From: Sphaerochaetaceae bacterium
GTDB taxonomy: Bacteria; Spirochaetota; Spirochaetia; Sphaerochaetales; Sphaerochaetaceae
NCBI GenBank assembly: GCA_016938475.1
Contig: JAFGUP010000264.1
Coordinates: forward strand, 1-43,922
DNA length: 43,922 bases
Direction of reading: 5' to 3'
Shown: positions 8,149 through 13,898 of the stretch, piece after piece
How the letters are laid out: every line of letters begins with the position of its first letter
Numbering within the stretch: the stretch's first letter is position 1
Notes under the pieces: model-generated
Database searches by the model: none
What the model was told of the DNA's origin: nothing
Seen by the model: the letters and a program-made list of their open reading frames with translations, nothing else
Made by a program: the position numbers and the translations under genes

Positions 8149-9387
8149 ATGGAACTGCTTGCTCCGGCCGGATCTCTGGAAAAACTGTCCTACGCCTACA
8201 CCTATGGGGCTGATGCAGCCTACATAGGTGTTCAGACGTTCTCTTTACGGGCAAGAAGCACGAATGCCGATCTGTACGATGCCCAGGCACTCAAGACGGC
8301 AAAAGGCAGCAGACGGCTCTACGGTGCAGTGAATAAGTTCTTCCACCAGAGGGACTATGAACGGTTCGAACAGAGTGTAGAAGAGCTCAAGGCGTTCCCG
8401 TTCGATGCGTTTATCGTAAGTGATCTCGGTCCTGCCCGTCTGCTGCGAAAGACCTTCGGGGACTCGGTAAGGCTTCATCTGTCGACCCAGGCGAACACCC
8501 TTAACAGCGGAGCCATTGAAGCGTACAGGGATTTGGGGTTCAGCAGAATCATACTCGGACGGGAAGTCTCTCTTGATGACATCAGGAGGATACGGGACAG
8601 ATGCCCTGACGTGGAACTGGAAACTTTTGTTCACGGTGCGATGTGCATGGCATACTCAGGAAGATGTTTTCTCAGTGCCCATCTATCAGGCCGTAGCGGA
8701 AACGAAGGAGATTGTGCACACACCTGCAGATGGACATACAAACCATATGCGAAGATGACCGATGGCTATGAGTTTGCTCTTGAAGAGGAGACACGCCCTG
8801 GAGAATACTTCCCGATCATCGAGGAAGATGGCTACACCACTATCATGAGCAGCAAGGACCTTTCCATGATCGATCATCTTCGGGACCTGAAAGAGGCAGG
8901 GGTGGACTCGCTGAAGATCGAAGGACGTATGAAGTCTCTCTACTATGTTGCCGTCATAACCCGGGCATACAGAAAAGCTCTTGATGCTCTGGAGAAGGGA
9001 ACAGACGAACATGAAGCCGAGCTCTACAGGAACGAGATAGCGACGGTCTCTCATCGTGAATTTTCCACCGGGTTTTTCTACTCCACCGAAGACATTGAAG
9101 AGCCGACAGAGATATCGTATGTACGACAGTATCTCCTTATCGGCACCATCGGTGAAAAGATTTCTGAGGGAGTATTCCGCCTTCACCTGAAAAACCGTAT
9201 TCGAACCGGTGAACAGATCGAGTACATCGGACCGGATATACTTTTCATCAAAGACGATCTGTTCTCCCTCATGGATATGGAAGGGAACCGGGTGGAAACG
9301 GCGAACCACCATATGGACATCTGCATAAAAACCTCTCAGCCTATCGAAAAAGGCTACATAATACGTCGTTCTCTGGCAAAAACCTGA
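8149..9387 (+). CDS. U32-family tRNA hydroxylation protein (TrhP/YegQ-like)
   Basis: The 412-residue product begins with the U32 signature MELLAPAGS and carries the family motif around FVHGAMCMAYSGRC. Four conserved cysteines, C166, C173, C189 and C193, match the iron-sulfur-type set of this family. The last 80 residues form the C-terminal U32 beta domain. Family members once annotated as collagenases act in tRNA 5-hydroxyuridine formation at U34 (TrhP) or related RNA hydroxylation; TrhP is the best fit by length and layout, but RlhA-type roles cannot be excluded. It is nine bases behind lon, with AGG at the lon stop codon as a weak ribosome site. Confidence 0.88.
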   Translation: MELLAPAGSLEKLSYAYTYGADAAYIGVQTFSLRARSTNADLYDAQALKTAKGSRRLYGAVNKFFHQRDYERFEQSVEELKAFPFDAFIVSDLGPARLLRKTFGDSVRLHLSTQANTLNSGAIEAYRDLGFSRIILGREVSLDDIRRIRDRCPDVELETFVHGAMCMAYSGRCFLSAHLSGRSGNEGDCAHTCRWTYKPYAKMTDGYEFALEEETRPGEYFPIIEEDGYTTIMSSKDLSMIDHLRDLKEAGVDSLKIEGRMKSLYYVAVITRAYRKALDALEKGTDEHEAELYRNEIATVSHREFSTGFFYSTEDIEEPTEISYVRQYLLIGTIGEKISEGVFRLHLKNRIRTGEQIEYIGPDILFIKDDLFSLMDMEGNRVETANHHMDICIKTSQPIEKGYIIRRSLAKT

Positions 9388-9398
9388 AGTAAATTACA

Positions 9399-9437
9399 TT
9401 TTTAGCTTTACAACCTAAAAATAATCAGTAATTATAG
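9399..9437 (+). promoter_or_regulatory. Putative promoter and operator of the H1-like gene
   Basis: An AT-rich inverted repeat, TTTTTAG (9399-9405) and CTAAAAA (9415-9421), flanks a TTTACA hexamer (9407-9412) that could serve as -35. TTATAG at 9432-9437 or the overlapping ATTATA at 9431 could serve as -10, with spacing at the long end. The symmetry around the -35 is compatible with a repressor or self-binding site. Confidence 0.3.
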
Positions 9438-9469
9438 TTGTATAACGTATTACACATAGGAGGCTTTAC

Positions 9470-9646
9470 ATGAGTGTACACGAGCAGATCCAGGCTCAGT
9501 TCGAAGCGTACATCGCTGAGAATCAGAAATTCACCGAAAAAGGTGTGAAGGCGTCAGCTGCCAGAGCAAGAAAAGCGCTGGGAGAACTTGGCAAACTTGC
9601 CAAAGAACGAAGAAAGGAAATTCAGGACGCTAAAAACGAGTTATAG
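9470..9646 (+). CDS. Histone H1/Hc1-like small basic DNA-binding protein
   Basis: The 58-residue protein has the layout of short bacterial H1 (Hc1-type) proteins. An acidic amphipathic helix (residues 1-22) is followed by KGVKASAARARKALGELG and then KLAKERRKE, which resembles the GNKAAxxRxR...L..LxKxxRK core of chlamydial Hc1 and Bacteroidota H1 proteins. It should bind DNA without sequence specificity and compact the nucleoid; this is inferred from similarity. AGGAGG lies six bases before the ATG, a stronger site than most genes here, and a U8 terminator follows at 9666-9702. It therefore looks monocistronic and highly expressed. The long Lys/Ala/Pro tail of chlamydial Hc1 is absent. Confidence 0.8.
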   Translation: MSVHEQIQAQFEAYIAENQKFTEKGVKASAARARKALGELGKLAKERRKEIQDAKNEL

Positions 9647-9665
9647 AATTTCTCATTCTGATATT

Positions 9666-9702
9666 GGCTGGTTCCACGTTCGGTGTTGCCAGTCTTTTTT
9701 TT
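9666..9702 (+). terminator. Intrinsic terminator of the H1-like gene
   Basis: GGCTGGT pairs with GCCAGTC (with G-U wobbles), with an inner CAC/GTG pairing, and is followed directly by eight T residues. The 220 bases from here to the GNAT stop at 9923 show only a CAGACCGGTCTG palindrome near 9776-9787 and no gene I can support. Confidence 0.75.
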
Positions 9703-10531: not shown

Positions 10532-13186
10532 CTACTTCAGCTGTTCTAGAAGGGCCAGGTGTTTCAATCCCTTCTCTTTCTTTTCAGTGAATTCTGCCAG
10601 CTTCTGCCGCTCTTTCTCAACAGCTTCCACTTTTGCGTTCTGCATGAACTTCTCGTTGTTCAGTTTCGCAGTGCTGCTGTTCAGTGACTTCTCGTTCTTC
10701 TCGAGTTCTTTTGTGATACGGGCGATCTCGGTATTCACATCGATGGCATCCTTTACAGCAACGAACGCTTCAAACCCGGCGCCCGAGACCGGTACCGAAC
10801 CGGTGATGTCTCCAGTATGCTCCACATCAAGAGTCAGCGTACTGGCATTGAGGAACGATGATACGAGATCGCTGTTCTCCTCCATGAACTTCCAGACAGT
10901 GTTGTTCTCATCCGGTCGATAGATGATGGCGAGTTTTCTTTCGGCAGGAATGACGAGTTCACTCCGCAGTGCCCTCACAGCCCTGACAAACTCCTGCATT
11001 GACTGTACGACGGCATGTTCTTCATCAAAGACACGTCCCTTATCGAACTTCGGGTAGGAAGATGCGATGATCATACCCTCCGTGTTCGGAAGCTTCTGGT
11101 AGATCTCTTCACTGATAAATGAAAGGAACGGGTGCATAAGTCGCATCAGGGTTGCAAGAATATCAAGCATGAAGGCAACGGTCATATCCTTCTGCTCTTC
11201 ACTCCTGGTGGAAAGATTGAACTTGGTCACCTCCACATACCAATCACAGAAGTCGTTCCAAAACACATCATAGATGTACTGTGCCGCCTCATTGAAACGG
11301 TAGGCTGACAGGGCCTGTTCCACCCCTGCTGAGGCCTGATTTACTTTGTGATACATCCATGCATCAATAACAGAGAGCCGGGAAACGTCAGGCTTTACCA
11401 GCTCTCTACCTTCAAGGTTCATGAGGAGAAAACGAGTTGCATTCCATACCTTGTTGGCAAAGCGGGAACCAAGTTTGAAGGAATCGAAGTCTATCAGGAT
11501 ATCCTGTCCCTGGGCGGCAAGGTAGCAGAGGGTGAACTTCATGGCATCCGCACCATACTCTTTCACCACATCGATCGGGTCTATCCCGTTACCGAGCGAT
11601 TTGGACATCTTCCGTCCGCTCTTGTCTCTAACAAGCCCGGTAATGTAGATGTCATTGAACGGCACTTCACCAAGAAACTCCAGAGAAGCCATGATCATGC
11701 GTGAGACCCAGAAGAAGATGATGTCATAGCCGGTCACCAGGGTATTGGTTTTAAAGAACCGTTTCATATCGTCGGAGGAATCGGGCCAGCCGAGGGTGCT
11801 GAACGGCCATAGCCAGCTGCTGAACCAGGTGTCAAGGACATCCTCTTCCTGGTGCAGACGAGTACTGTTACAGGCCGAGCAGTGAGTGGGATCTTCCCTT
11901 TCGACCATCATATGGCCGCACTCTTCGCAGTACCATACGGGGATTCTATGTCCCCACCAGAGCTGCCGGCTGATACACCAATCCTTGATGTTTCTCAACC
12001 AGTGTGAGTAGGTGTTCTCCCAGCGCTGTGCATAGAAGTGGATCTTTCCGTCTTCCCATGCCTTCAGTGCCTTGTCTGCCATACCCTTCATGGAAACGAA
12101 CCACTGGTCACTCACGTAGGGCTCTATAACCGTGGAACAGCGGTAGCAGTGCCCTACGTCATGGCTATGATCCTTTCGCCCTATAAGGTACCCCGCCTCC
12201 TGCAGATCCTTGACCACCTTCTTCCGTGCTGTGGTCACATCAAGACCCCGGTATGCGGGAGGGACTACTTCATTGAGAGTCCCGTCGGGATTGAGAACGT
12301 TCTTGACCTCAAGGTTATGACGTTGCCCGATTGCCCAGTCATTCGGGTCATGTGCGGGAGTAATCTTGACCATACCGGTACCAAATTCCATGTCTACATA
12401 GGCATCTGCAATGATAGGGATAGGGATATCGGCCAGAGGGAGGATAACATGAGTACCGATGAGATCCTTATAGCGCTCATCATCGGGATGAACAGCAACA
12501 GCCACGTCACCGAACATCGTCTCAGGCCGGGTCGTTGCAACAGTGATCCCCCCATCTCCATCCTGGAAGGGATAGGTCACCTGGTACAGTGCTCCTCCTA
12601 CAGTCTGGTATTCAACCTCATCGTCTGCAAGAGCTGTCCCGCAGCTTGTACAGTAGTTGACAAGATACTTCCCCTTGTAGATGAGATTTCTTTCGTACAG
12701 AGTGACGAACGATTCCCGTACTGCCTTGCTGAGACCTTCATCCATCGTGAATCGTTCACGGTCCCAATCACAGCTGCTTCCGATTTTCTCAAGCTGTCTC
12801 TTGATCGTGGTGTGGTGTCGATCCTTCACCTTCCAGGTCTCTTCGAGGAACTTTTCACGTCCGAGCTGTGTACGGGATTCGCCCCTTGCACGCAATTCTT
12901 TTTCTACAACGTGCTGGGTCGCTATACCTGCATGATCAGTACCCGGCAGCCACAGCGTATCATAGCCGCTCATTCTCTTATAGCGGATCAGAATATCCTG
13001 CAGGGTGTTGTTCAGGGCATGGCCCATATGCAGTATACCGGTTACGTTCGGAGGGGGCATGACGATGGTATACGGACTCTTTCCTTCAGCCGAAGGGGCA
13101 AAGCAGTTTCCCTTCTTCCACGCATCATACAGCTTCTCTTCGAATTCAGCGGGATTATAACTCTTTTCTAGTTCTATCGATTTCAT
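10532..13186 (-). CDS. valS: Valyl-tRNA synthetase
   Basis: The 884-residue protein is a class I synthetase that charges tRNA-Val. The HIGH-type motif is HMGH at 53-56 and KMSKS is at 526-530. The editing domain carries the TTRPETMFGD segment near 219-227. Zinc-type cysteine pairs occur at 179/182, 347/350, 420/423 and 436/439. The last 60 residues form the coiled-coil arm (LEKNEKSLNSSTAKL region) that contacts tRNA. The ATG at 13186 has AGGAGAGG just upstream and is preferred to an earlier in-frame codon. A promoter is predicted at 13219-13247, and I see no T-box. Confidence 0.98.
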   Translation of the reverse strand: MKSIELEKSYNPAEFEEKLYDAWKKGNCFAPSAEGKSPYTIVMPPPNVTGILHMGHALNNTLQDILIRYKRMSGYDTLWLPGTDHAGIATQHVVEKELRARGESRTQLGREKFLEETWKVKDRHHTTIKRQLEKIGSSCDWDRERFTMDEGLSKAVRESFVTLYERNLIYKGKYLVNYCTSCGTALADDEVEYQTVGGALYQVTYPFQDGDGGITVATTRPETMFGDVAVAVHPDDERYKDLIGTHVILPLADIPIPIIADAYVDMEFGTGMVKITPAHDPNDWAIGQRHNLEVKNVLNPDGTLNEVVPPAYRGLDVTTARKKVVKDLQEAGYLIGRKDHSHDVGHCYRCSTVIEPYVSDQWFVSMKGMADKALKAWEDGKIHFYAQRWENTYSHWLRNIKDWCISRQLWWGHRIPVWYCEECGHMMVEREDPTHCSACNSTRLHQEEDVLDTWFSSWLWPFSTLGWPDSSDDMKRFFKTNTLVTGYDIIFFWVSRMIMASLEFLGEVPFNDIYITGLVRDKSGRKMSKSLGNGIDPIDVVKEYGADAMKFTLCYLAAQGQDILIDFDSFKLGSRFANKVWNATRFLLMNLEGRELVKPDVSRLSVIDAWMYHKVNQASAGVEQALSAYRFNEAAQYIYDVFWNDFCDWYVEVTKFNLSTRSEEQKDMTVAFMLDILATLMRLMHPFLSFISEEIYQKLPNTEGMIIASSYPKFDKGRVFDEEHAVVQSMQEFVRAVRALRSELVIPAERKLAIIYRPDENNTVWKFMEENSDLVSSFLNASTLTLDVEHTGDITGSVPVSGAGFEAFVAVKDAIDVNTEIARITKELEKNEKSLNSSTAKLNNEKFMQNAKVEAVEKERQKLAEFTEKKEKGLKHLALLEQLK

Positions 13187-13218
13187 GACCTCTCCTGTTG
13201 TGAGCACTCTGTTCCAGC

Positions 13219-13247
13219 ATAGTACCAAAATCATGACACTGTTACAA
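13219..13247 (-). promoter_or_regulatory. Probable valS promoter
   Basis: Reading the minus strand, TTGTAA (13247-13242), a 17-base spacer and TACTAT (13224-13219) place a start about 25 bases before the valS ATG, downstream of the sigma/anti-sigma terminator. Confidence 0.4.
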
Positions 13248-13343: not shown

Positions 13344-13898
13344 CTATTTTCCGGTATCATCACCCAGGACAGTCACTGACTTCAGTTTCAGGTCAACTTC
13401 ATATCCTTTCTGATCAAGATAACTCAGGATCTCCTCAAGAGAGAGGTTACTGAGCACCTGTGAAGCTGCAAGGTTTTCGGTCGCTCTCACCTGCATGGCT
13501 CCCTGTCCCTGAGAATCAACAACCTGGGGTATGATCACATTTTCTTCATTCAGGGTCGGTGAATTGAGTGTAAGTGCTCCCACGAACATCAGAACAAAGG
13601 CAGCTGCCACACCAATGACCGCCGAAGTCTTCACTCGAAAGTCGCGGTGAAGAAATTTGATCTTCTTTTCCTTCTTCAGGTACCGGTTTTCCAGATATGC
13701 GTAGATCTTGTCCTTTGACGCATCGACCTGTTCATCTTTCAGACGGGAGGTGCTCACCATCGTATGAACCGCTTTGAGTTGTTCGTATCGTGTCGAGCAG
13801 GCACTGCAGTACTTGAGATGCTCTATCACCTGCGTCTTCCAAGGTTCAACAAGCTCATCATCAAGGTAGGTATTTAAAATCTGATCATCTAGACACAT
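13344..13898 (-). CDS. Anti-sigma factor, zinc-finger (zf-HC2) type, single-pass membrane
   Basis: The 184-residue product starts with an anti-sigma zinc domain: C2, H27, C31 and C34 fit the H-x3-C-x2-C pattern. A basic linker (KKEKKIKF) precedes one membrane segment at about 92-110, and about 70 residues follow on the outside. Such proteins hold the ECF sigma factor until proteolysis or zinc-thiol oxidation releases it. The outer domain, with the SLEEILSYLDQKGYEV segment, is not one I recognise, so the signal is unknown. The gene overlaps the sigma gene by 14 bases and has GGGGAG before its ATG. Confidence 0.88.
   Translation of the reverse strand: MCLDDQILNTYLDDELVEPWKTQVIEHLKYCSACSTRYEQLKAVHTMVSTSRLKDEQVDASKDKIYAYLENRYLKKEKKIKFLHRDFRVKTSAVIGVAAAFVLMFVGALTLNSPTLNEENVIIPQVVDSQGQGAMQVRATENLAASQVLSNLSLEEILSYLDQKGYEVDLKLKSVTVLGDDTGK

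Follow-up and report, generated by a model that had tools for sequence, protein, structure and literature searches.

A tail-less Hc1-family protein conserved in Sphaerochaetaceae-like spirochaetes and present in aquatic phages

The stretch of DNA analysed here (43,922 nt, referred to as the window) carries on its plus strand a small gene, hc1 (9470–9646, stop codon included), whose 58-aa product is a genuine member of the Hc1 ('histone H1-like') family, PF07432. The family itself is known and the window protein is an uncharacterised new member of it, identified by ORF reading, profile match and structure prediction. The protein (hereafter the Hc1-core protein; MSVHEQIQAQFEAYIAENQKFTEKGVKASAARARKALGELGKLAKERRKEIQDAKNEL) has a mass of 6.6 kDa, and the motifs quoted for it in a preliminary description of the region, KGVKASAARARK and LGKLAKERRKE, are both present in the ORF. 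Judged from its sequence, a role in the nucleoid is plausible.

Family membership, predicted structure and missing tail

In a Pfam search, residues 4–56 of the Hc1-core protein aligned with positions 4–56 of the 57-position PF07432 model (E 1.9e-13, 50.5 bits), covering 53 of the 57 model positions. The curated cut-off for this family is 23.5 bits, and since the match lies above it, the Hc1 reading put forward in the preliminary description passes the HMM test that had been proposed for it. The second-best Pfam family gave an E value of 0.1, significance being reached by the Hc1 model only, and each of the 43 members of our alignment (spirochaete, Nitrospina, Polynucleobacter and viral relatives) matched PF07432 individually. 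The helical core with the KG.KA...RARK and K.RR motifs of Hc1, the chlamydial protein from which the family takes its name, is present and forms invariant columns in the 43 sequences. Searches with the protein returned no match in NCBIfam and no solved relative among PDB sequences. Membership of the HU/IHF family (PF00216) was ruled out, as Hc1 is the sole significant model and the predicted helical hairpin has no strands.

AlphaFold, supplied with the 43-row alignment, predicts a helical hairpin in which helix 1 spans residues 3–24 and helix 2 residues 27–57 (mean pLDDT 97.4). Invariant across the 43 sequences are M1, Y14, E17, F21, K24, K27, R32, R34, L37, K45, R47, R48, E50 and I51, with K35 and K55 nearly so, and the positions neighbouring the invariant basic residues are variable. 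In the model, these basic residues are located at the hairpin turn and along helix 2. At pH 7 the charge of helix 2 is +4.8 and that of helix 1 is -2.2, and the pI of the protein is 9.5. Heptad-spaced hydrophobic residues are found on both helices (I7, F11, Y14 and F21 on helix 1; L37, L40, A44 and I51 on helix 2). Codon 44 (9599–9601) specifies Ala in the window and Cys in 18 of the 43 aligned relatives, where it alternates with Ala; this helix-2 position may be a redox-sensitive or metal site, or merely reflect small-residue packing. Fold searches with the predicted hairpin retrieved generic helical hairpins only (E 0.65 or worse), the weak matches including large-subunit ribosomal proteins (E 2.9 or worse). 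A match to the T4-like small terminase fold, again a generic hairpin and with E above 1, was not counted as evidence.

Only two residues follow the domain match in the Hc1-core protein, the last being residue 58. A full-length, chlamydial-type Hc1 (HctA) is ruled out by this length, by the stop codon straight after the domain and by the lack of a long lysine-rich C-terminal tail. The absence of a long basic tail, already remarked on in the preliminary description, is confirmed and is conserved among the spirochaete copies: they are 57–60 aa long, none of the copies read has a basic tail, and the stop-to-stop frames of hc1 extend to at most 108 codons across 76 genomes of the spirochaete family. 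The proteins are similarly short in Nitrospina (57–60 aa), in Polynucleobacter and its relatives (59–62 aa, with a second type of 77–80 aa) and in viruses (58–68 aa), so members of this part of the Hc1 family generally lack the tail, and its absence from the window protein is not a truncation. Several genomes of Polynucleobacter encode both types (among the loci L082, L083 and L085-L100 of Polynucleobacter and its relatives), and the longer type has a conserved C-terminus, GMSQDAARHAHIRK, with no lysine-rich tail.

Signals flanking hc1

A Shine-Dalgarno sequence, AGGAGG (9459–9464, plus strand), lies 5 nt 5' of the hc1 ATG, and AGGAGGC or a near variant of it is retained by most relatives. On the other side of the gene is an intrinsic terminator (9668–9702, plus strand), an imperfect, GC-containing predicted hairpin followed by U8 (9695–9702). 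It was missed by strict consensus scans, and a hairpin with a T-run is found 3' of hc1 in 39 of 49 relatives (1.4 expected). A search of Rfam gave no match to a structured RNA in the hc1 region.

The promoter scan upstream of hc1 produced a single site, where 1.2 were expected: a weak sigma-70-like candidate, TTTACA-17-AATTAT (9/12; 9407–9435, plus strand). The relatives have an extended -10 promoter consisting of TTGnnn, a 15–17 nt spacer ending in TGn, and then TAnnnT, with the -35 box starting mostly 55–60 nt before the ATG. Of the 44 distinct upstream regions, 42 contain it, compared with 0.8 expected from shuffles; this excess is somewhat flattered, since the pattern was picked after viewing the same sequences and the relatives are not independent. 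The size of the excess leaves little doubt that this promoter is conserved among hc1 relatives. The upstream region of the window (9388–9469) lacks it, though the Shine-Dalgarno sequence and terminator are kept; either the promoter has changed in this genome or the assembly is unusual over this stretch.

These results bear on the strong expression signals that had been ascribed to the gene. The AGGAGG site and the U8 terminator were both found as described; the promoter falls short, given the chance-level scan result and the missing extended -10 form. Strong expression is a weak claim, and the codon adaptation of hc1 is moderate (0.708, over 58 codons only; median of window genes 0.683, most ribosomal proteins 0.70–0.78).

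The AT-rich inverted repeat noted earlier over the -35 region, ATTTTTAGCTT-TAC-AACCTAAAAAT (9398–9422), does exist. Its 11-nt arms (9398–9408 and 9412–9422) match at 91% across a 3-nt gap, and it spans the TTTACA box (9407–9412). When the AT-rich gap upstream of hc1 (82 bp) was dinucleotide-shuffled 1000 times, 60 of the shuffles contained an inverted repeat as good; the repeat of the window is not clearly above chance. In the 3.07-Mb genome it occurs once, with no further copies at up to one mismatch, and it is absent from the congeners L012, L037 and L007; the best counterparts were one with 2 mismatches in 14 in a distant relative, and one with 4 in congener L012. The suggestion that this palindrome is a self-control operator was rejected, as 6% of shuffles are as good, the genome has a single copy and no relative, congeners included, has a conserved counterpart.

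Distribution in bacteria and phages

Among 81 near-complete genomes of the Sphaerochaetaceae-like family, 76 contain a single hc1 gene, with all 18 genera of the family represented. The gene is patchy elsewhere in the phylum, where a sample of 296 genomes contained five more carriers, and is present in two other families of the class. Named relatives of the protein come from Sphaerochaeta species and uncultured Spirochaetales, and the genome had been rightly called spirochaete-like. Compared with congener L012, the protein is 95% identical over the aligned segment and the gene shows 22 synonymous and 5 non-synonymous codon changes (dN ~0.07; dS ~1.6, which is saturating); hc1 is under strong purifying selection.

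Two conserved neighbours, both named by sequence reading, flank the gene: upstream, a U32-type peptidase-family gene (412 aa; 8149–9387, plus strand) and downstream, in convergent orientation, the gene for valyl-tRNA synthetase (ValRS; 10532–13234, minus strand). Many relatives share the gene order Lon - U32 peptidase - hc1 - ValRS (ValRS on the opposite strand), and L007, L010, L013, L016, L038, L045 and L104 match it most closely; in others these neighbours lie 1–4 kb off or were not found within the stretch examined. The recurring order points to vertical inheritance of hc1 within the spirochaete family. That the gene stands alone, as first described, applies to its apparent transcription unit and not to its position, which is conserved between the U32 peptidase and ValRS genes. 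ValRS is adjoined by a gene for a 184-aa protein (13344–13898, minus strand) with an N-terminal Cys motif resembling that of a zinc-finger anti-sigma factor, and this gene is also found beside ValRS in several relatives.

Polynucleobacter and Nitrospina encode proteins of 57–62 aa that are 60–69% identical to the window protein, and PF07432 was also matched in the control genome Bacteroides ihuae, known here from the profile match. These members belong to the same family, but their lineages and gene neighbourhoods differ from those of the window gene. A search of plasmids for relatives of the Hc1-core protein found none.

Viral relatives are numerous: among the 600 candidate stretches listed, at least 529 were confirmed using the single sequence as query and at least 578 using the alignment, the closest copies among the matches listed being ~58–78% identical to the window protein. 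When the best 80 viral copies of the matches listed are sorted by surroundings, 48 fall in a baseplate block, in which hc1 lies between a gp5-like hub gene and gp25-/gp6-like wedge genes, SbcC-like genes are nearby in 20 and radical-SAM genes in 5, and the remaining 7 lie elsewhere. The baseplate cassette was seen in aquatic T4-like viral contigs (L151:1984-5397, L126 and 46 other loci), and a second common viral site follows SbcC-like genes (L114, L123). Among annotated phages there were four matching records only, namely two accessions of Synechococcus phage S-SRM01, in which the copy is annotated as 'histone H1', and two marine single-cell viruses that lack annotation. PF07432 proteins have also been reported in four 'moraphages' (PMC12619734). 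The phage proteins belong to the same family and are likewise tail-less, at most 78% identical in the aquatic viral contigs, but they have baseplate, SbcC or radical-SAM surroundings, whereas the window hc1 is a chromosomal core gene. A PHROGs search gave weak matches only (best E 0.0096). In a tree of 122 sequences, which with ~60 columns is directionless, the viral copies fall into two or more separate groups, and at least three label changes are forced.

Possible functions of the tail-less core

On balance, we favour with moderate confidence a function for the Hc1-core protein in the nucleoid, as a small accessory protein that binds nucleic acid and acts as an oligomer. The hydrophobic heptad residues would close the antiparallel hairpin, and the same residues would probably hold hairpins together as a dimer or larger oligomer, as suggested by the heptad pattern together with the role reported for the N-terminal region of the chlamydial protein. 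Conserved basic residues of the turn and helix 2 would form a positive surface, doubled in the oligomer, whose most likely ligand is nucleic acid of any sequence. The protein could then serve beside HU, which is present once in the genome; as the genome has its own HU, the Hc1-core protein would be no replacement for it. Members of HU/IHF (PF00216) are likewise small and basic and share the proposed nucleoid role, but the families are unrelated. In favour of nucleic-acid binding, the basic residues are invariant while neighbouring positions vary, and the short phage cassette fits a small nucleic-acid-handling protein, though it is no proof of one. A net charge of only +3 counts against it, as do the lack of a solved relative and the merely generic fold matches, and the bacterial neighbours (protease, U32 peptidase and ValRS) give no pointer to chromosome structure. 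The main doubt comes from chlamydial Hc1, which shares the PF07432 domain (residues 4–56 of the window protein) but has a lysine-rich tail; the window protein has neither this tail nor a known developmental cycle, and its DNA binding is only inferred. Pedersen et al., in 1996, reportedly found that chlamydial Hc1 binds nucleic acid through its lysine-rich C-terminal tail and dimerises through its N-terminal region, so the core kept in the window protein may not bind DNA.

Were the basic hairpin to bind rRNA, mRNA or tRNA and not DNA, it might tune translation or RNA stability. Such an RNA- or ribosome-associated role would suit a small basic helical hairpin with large-subunit ribosomal proteins among its weak fold matches, ValRS downstream and an upstream neighbour from the U32 family, which includes RNA-modifying members. 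Chlamydial Hc1 itself interacts with RNA, according to the title of Pedersen et al. 1994 (cited in PMC12619734). We nevertheless hold this role to be unlikely: the fold matches are generic (ribosomal chains at E 2.9 or worse), syntenic genes need not share a function, and the phage copies have quite different neighbours. A low probability is also given to a protein-protein adaptor role, in which the core is purely a dimerisation module: its partner would be another protein, such as RNA polymerase, a DNA-binding protein or a structural protein of a phage, and the core itself would make no contact with nucleic acid. The corresponding part of chlamydial Hc1 is regarded as a dimerisation region, and 48 of the best 80 viral copies lie between gp5-like hub and gp25-like wedge genes; however, the basic residues are conserved as strongly as the hydrophobic ones, the baseplate site is not general (20 of the best 80 are near SbcC-like genes and 12 elsewhere), and the bacterial copies have no constant partner beyond the syntenic genes.

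The abundance of very similar tail-less copies in viral contigs, and the interleaving of viral and bacterial copies in the tree (at least three forced label changes), might also suggest that a phage gene was domesticated and plays no part in the bacterial nucleoid. This we consider very improbable, as ~60 alignment columns cannot give the direction of transfer, and in the spirochaete family nearly every genome has one copy of the gene, syntenic and subject to purifying selection, from which it follows that hc1 has a host function.

In the literature searched, PF07432 refers almost exclusively to chlamydial Hc1, the function of which is tied to its tail, and nothing was found there on Sphaerochaeta with histone H1 or on a stand-alone Hc1 core in bacteria. 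With a single copy in nearly every genome of one bacterial family and many copies among aquatic phages, the tail-less core is evidently useful by itself. More speculatively, and with rather less confidence than doubt, this core could be a self-sufficient, minimal (<7 kDa) nucleic-acid organiser common to aquatic T4-like phages and several bacterial phyla, which in Sphaerochaetaceae-like spirochaetes became a fixed, core component of the nucleoid; the hairpin would then be the ancestral functional unit and the chlamydial tail a later addition. The wide distribution of the tail-less core, across one spirochaete family and aquatic phages, appears to be little described and makes the Hc1 core a reasonable experimental target, whose function can be studied in cultured Sphaerochaeta and in Polynucleobacter as tractable systems.
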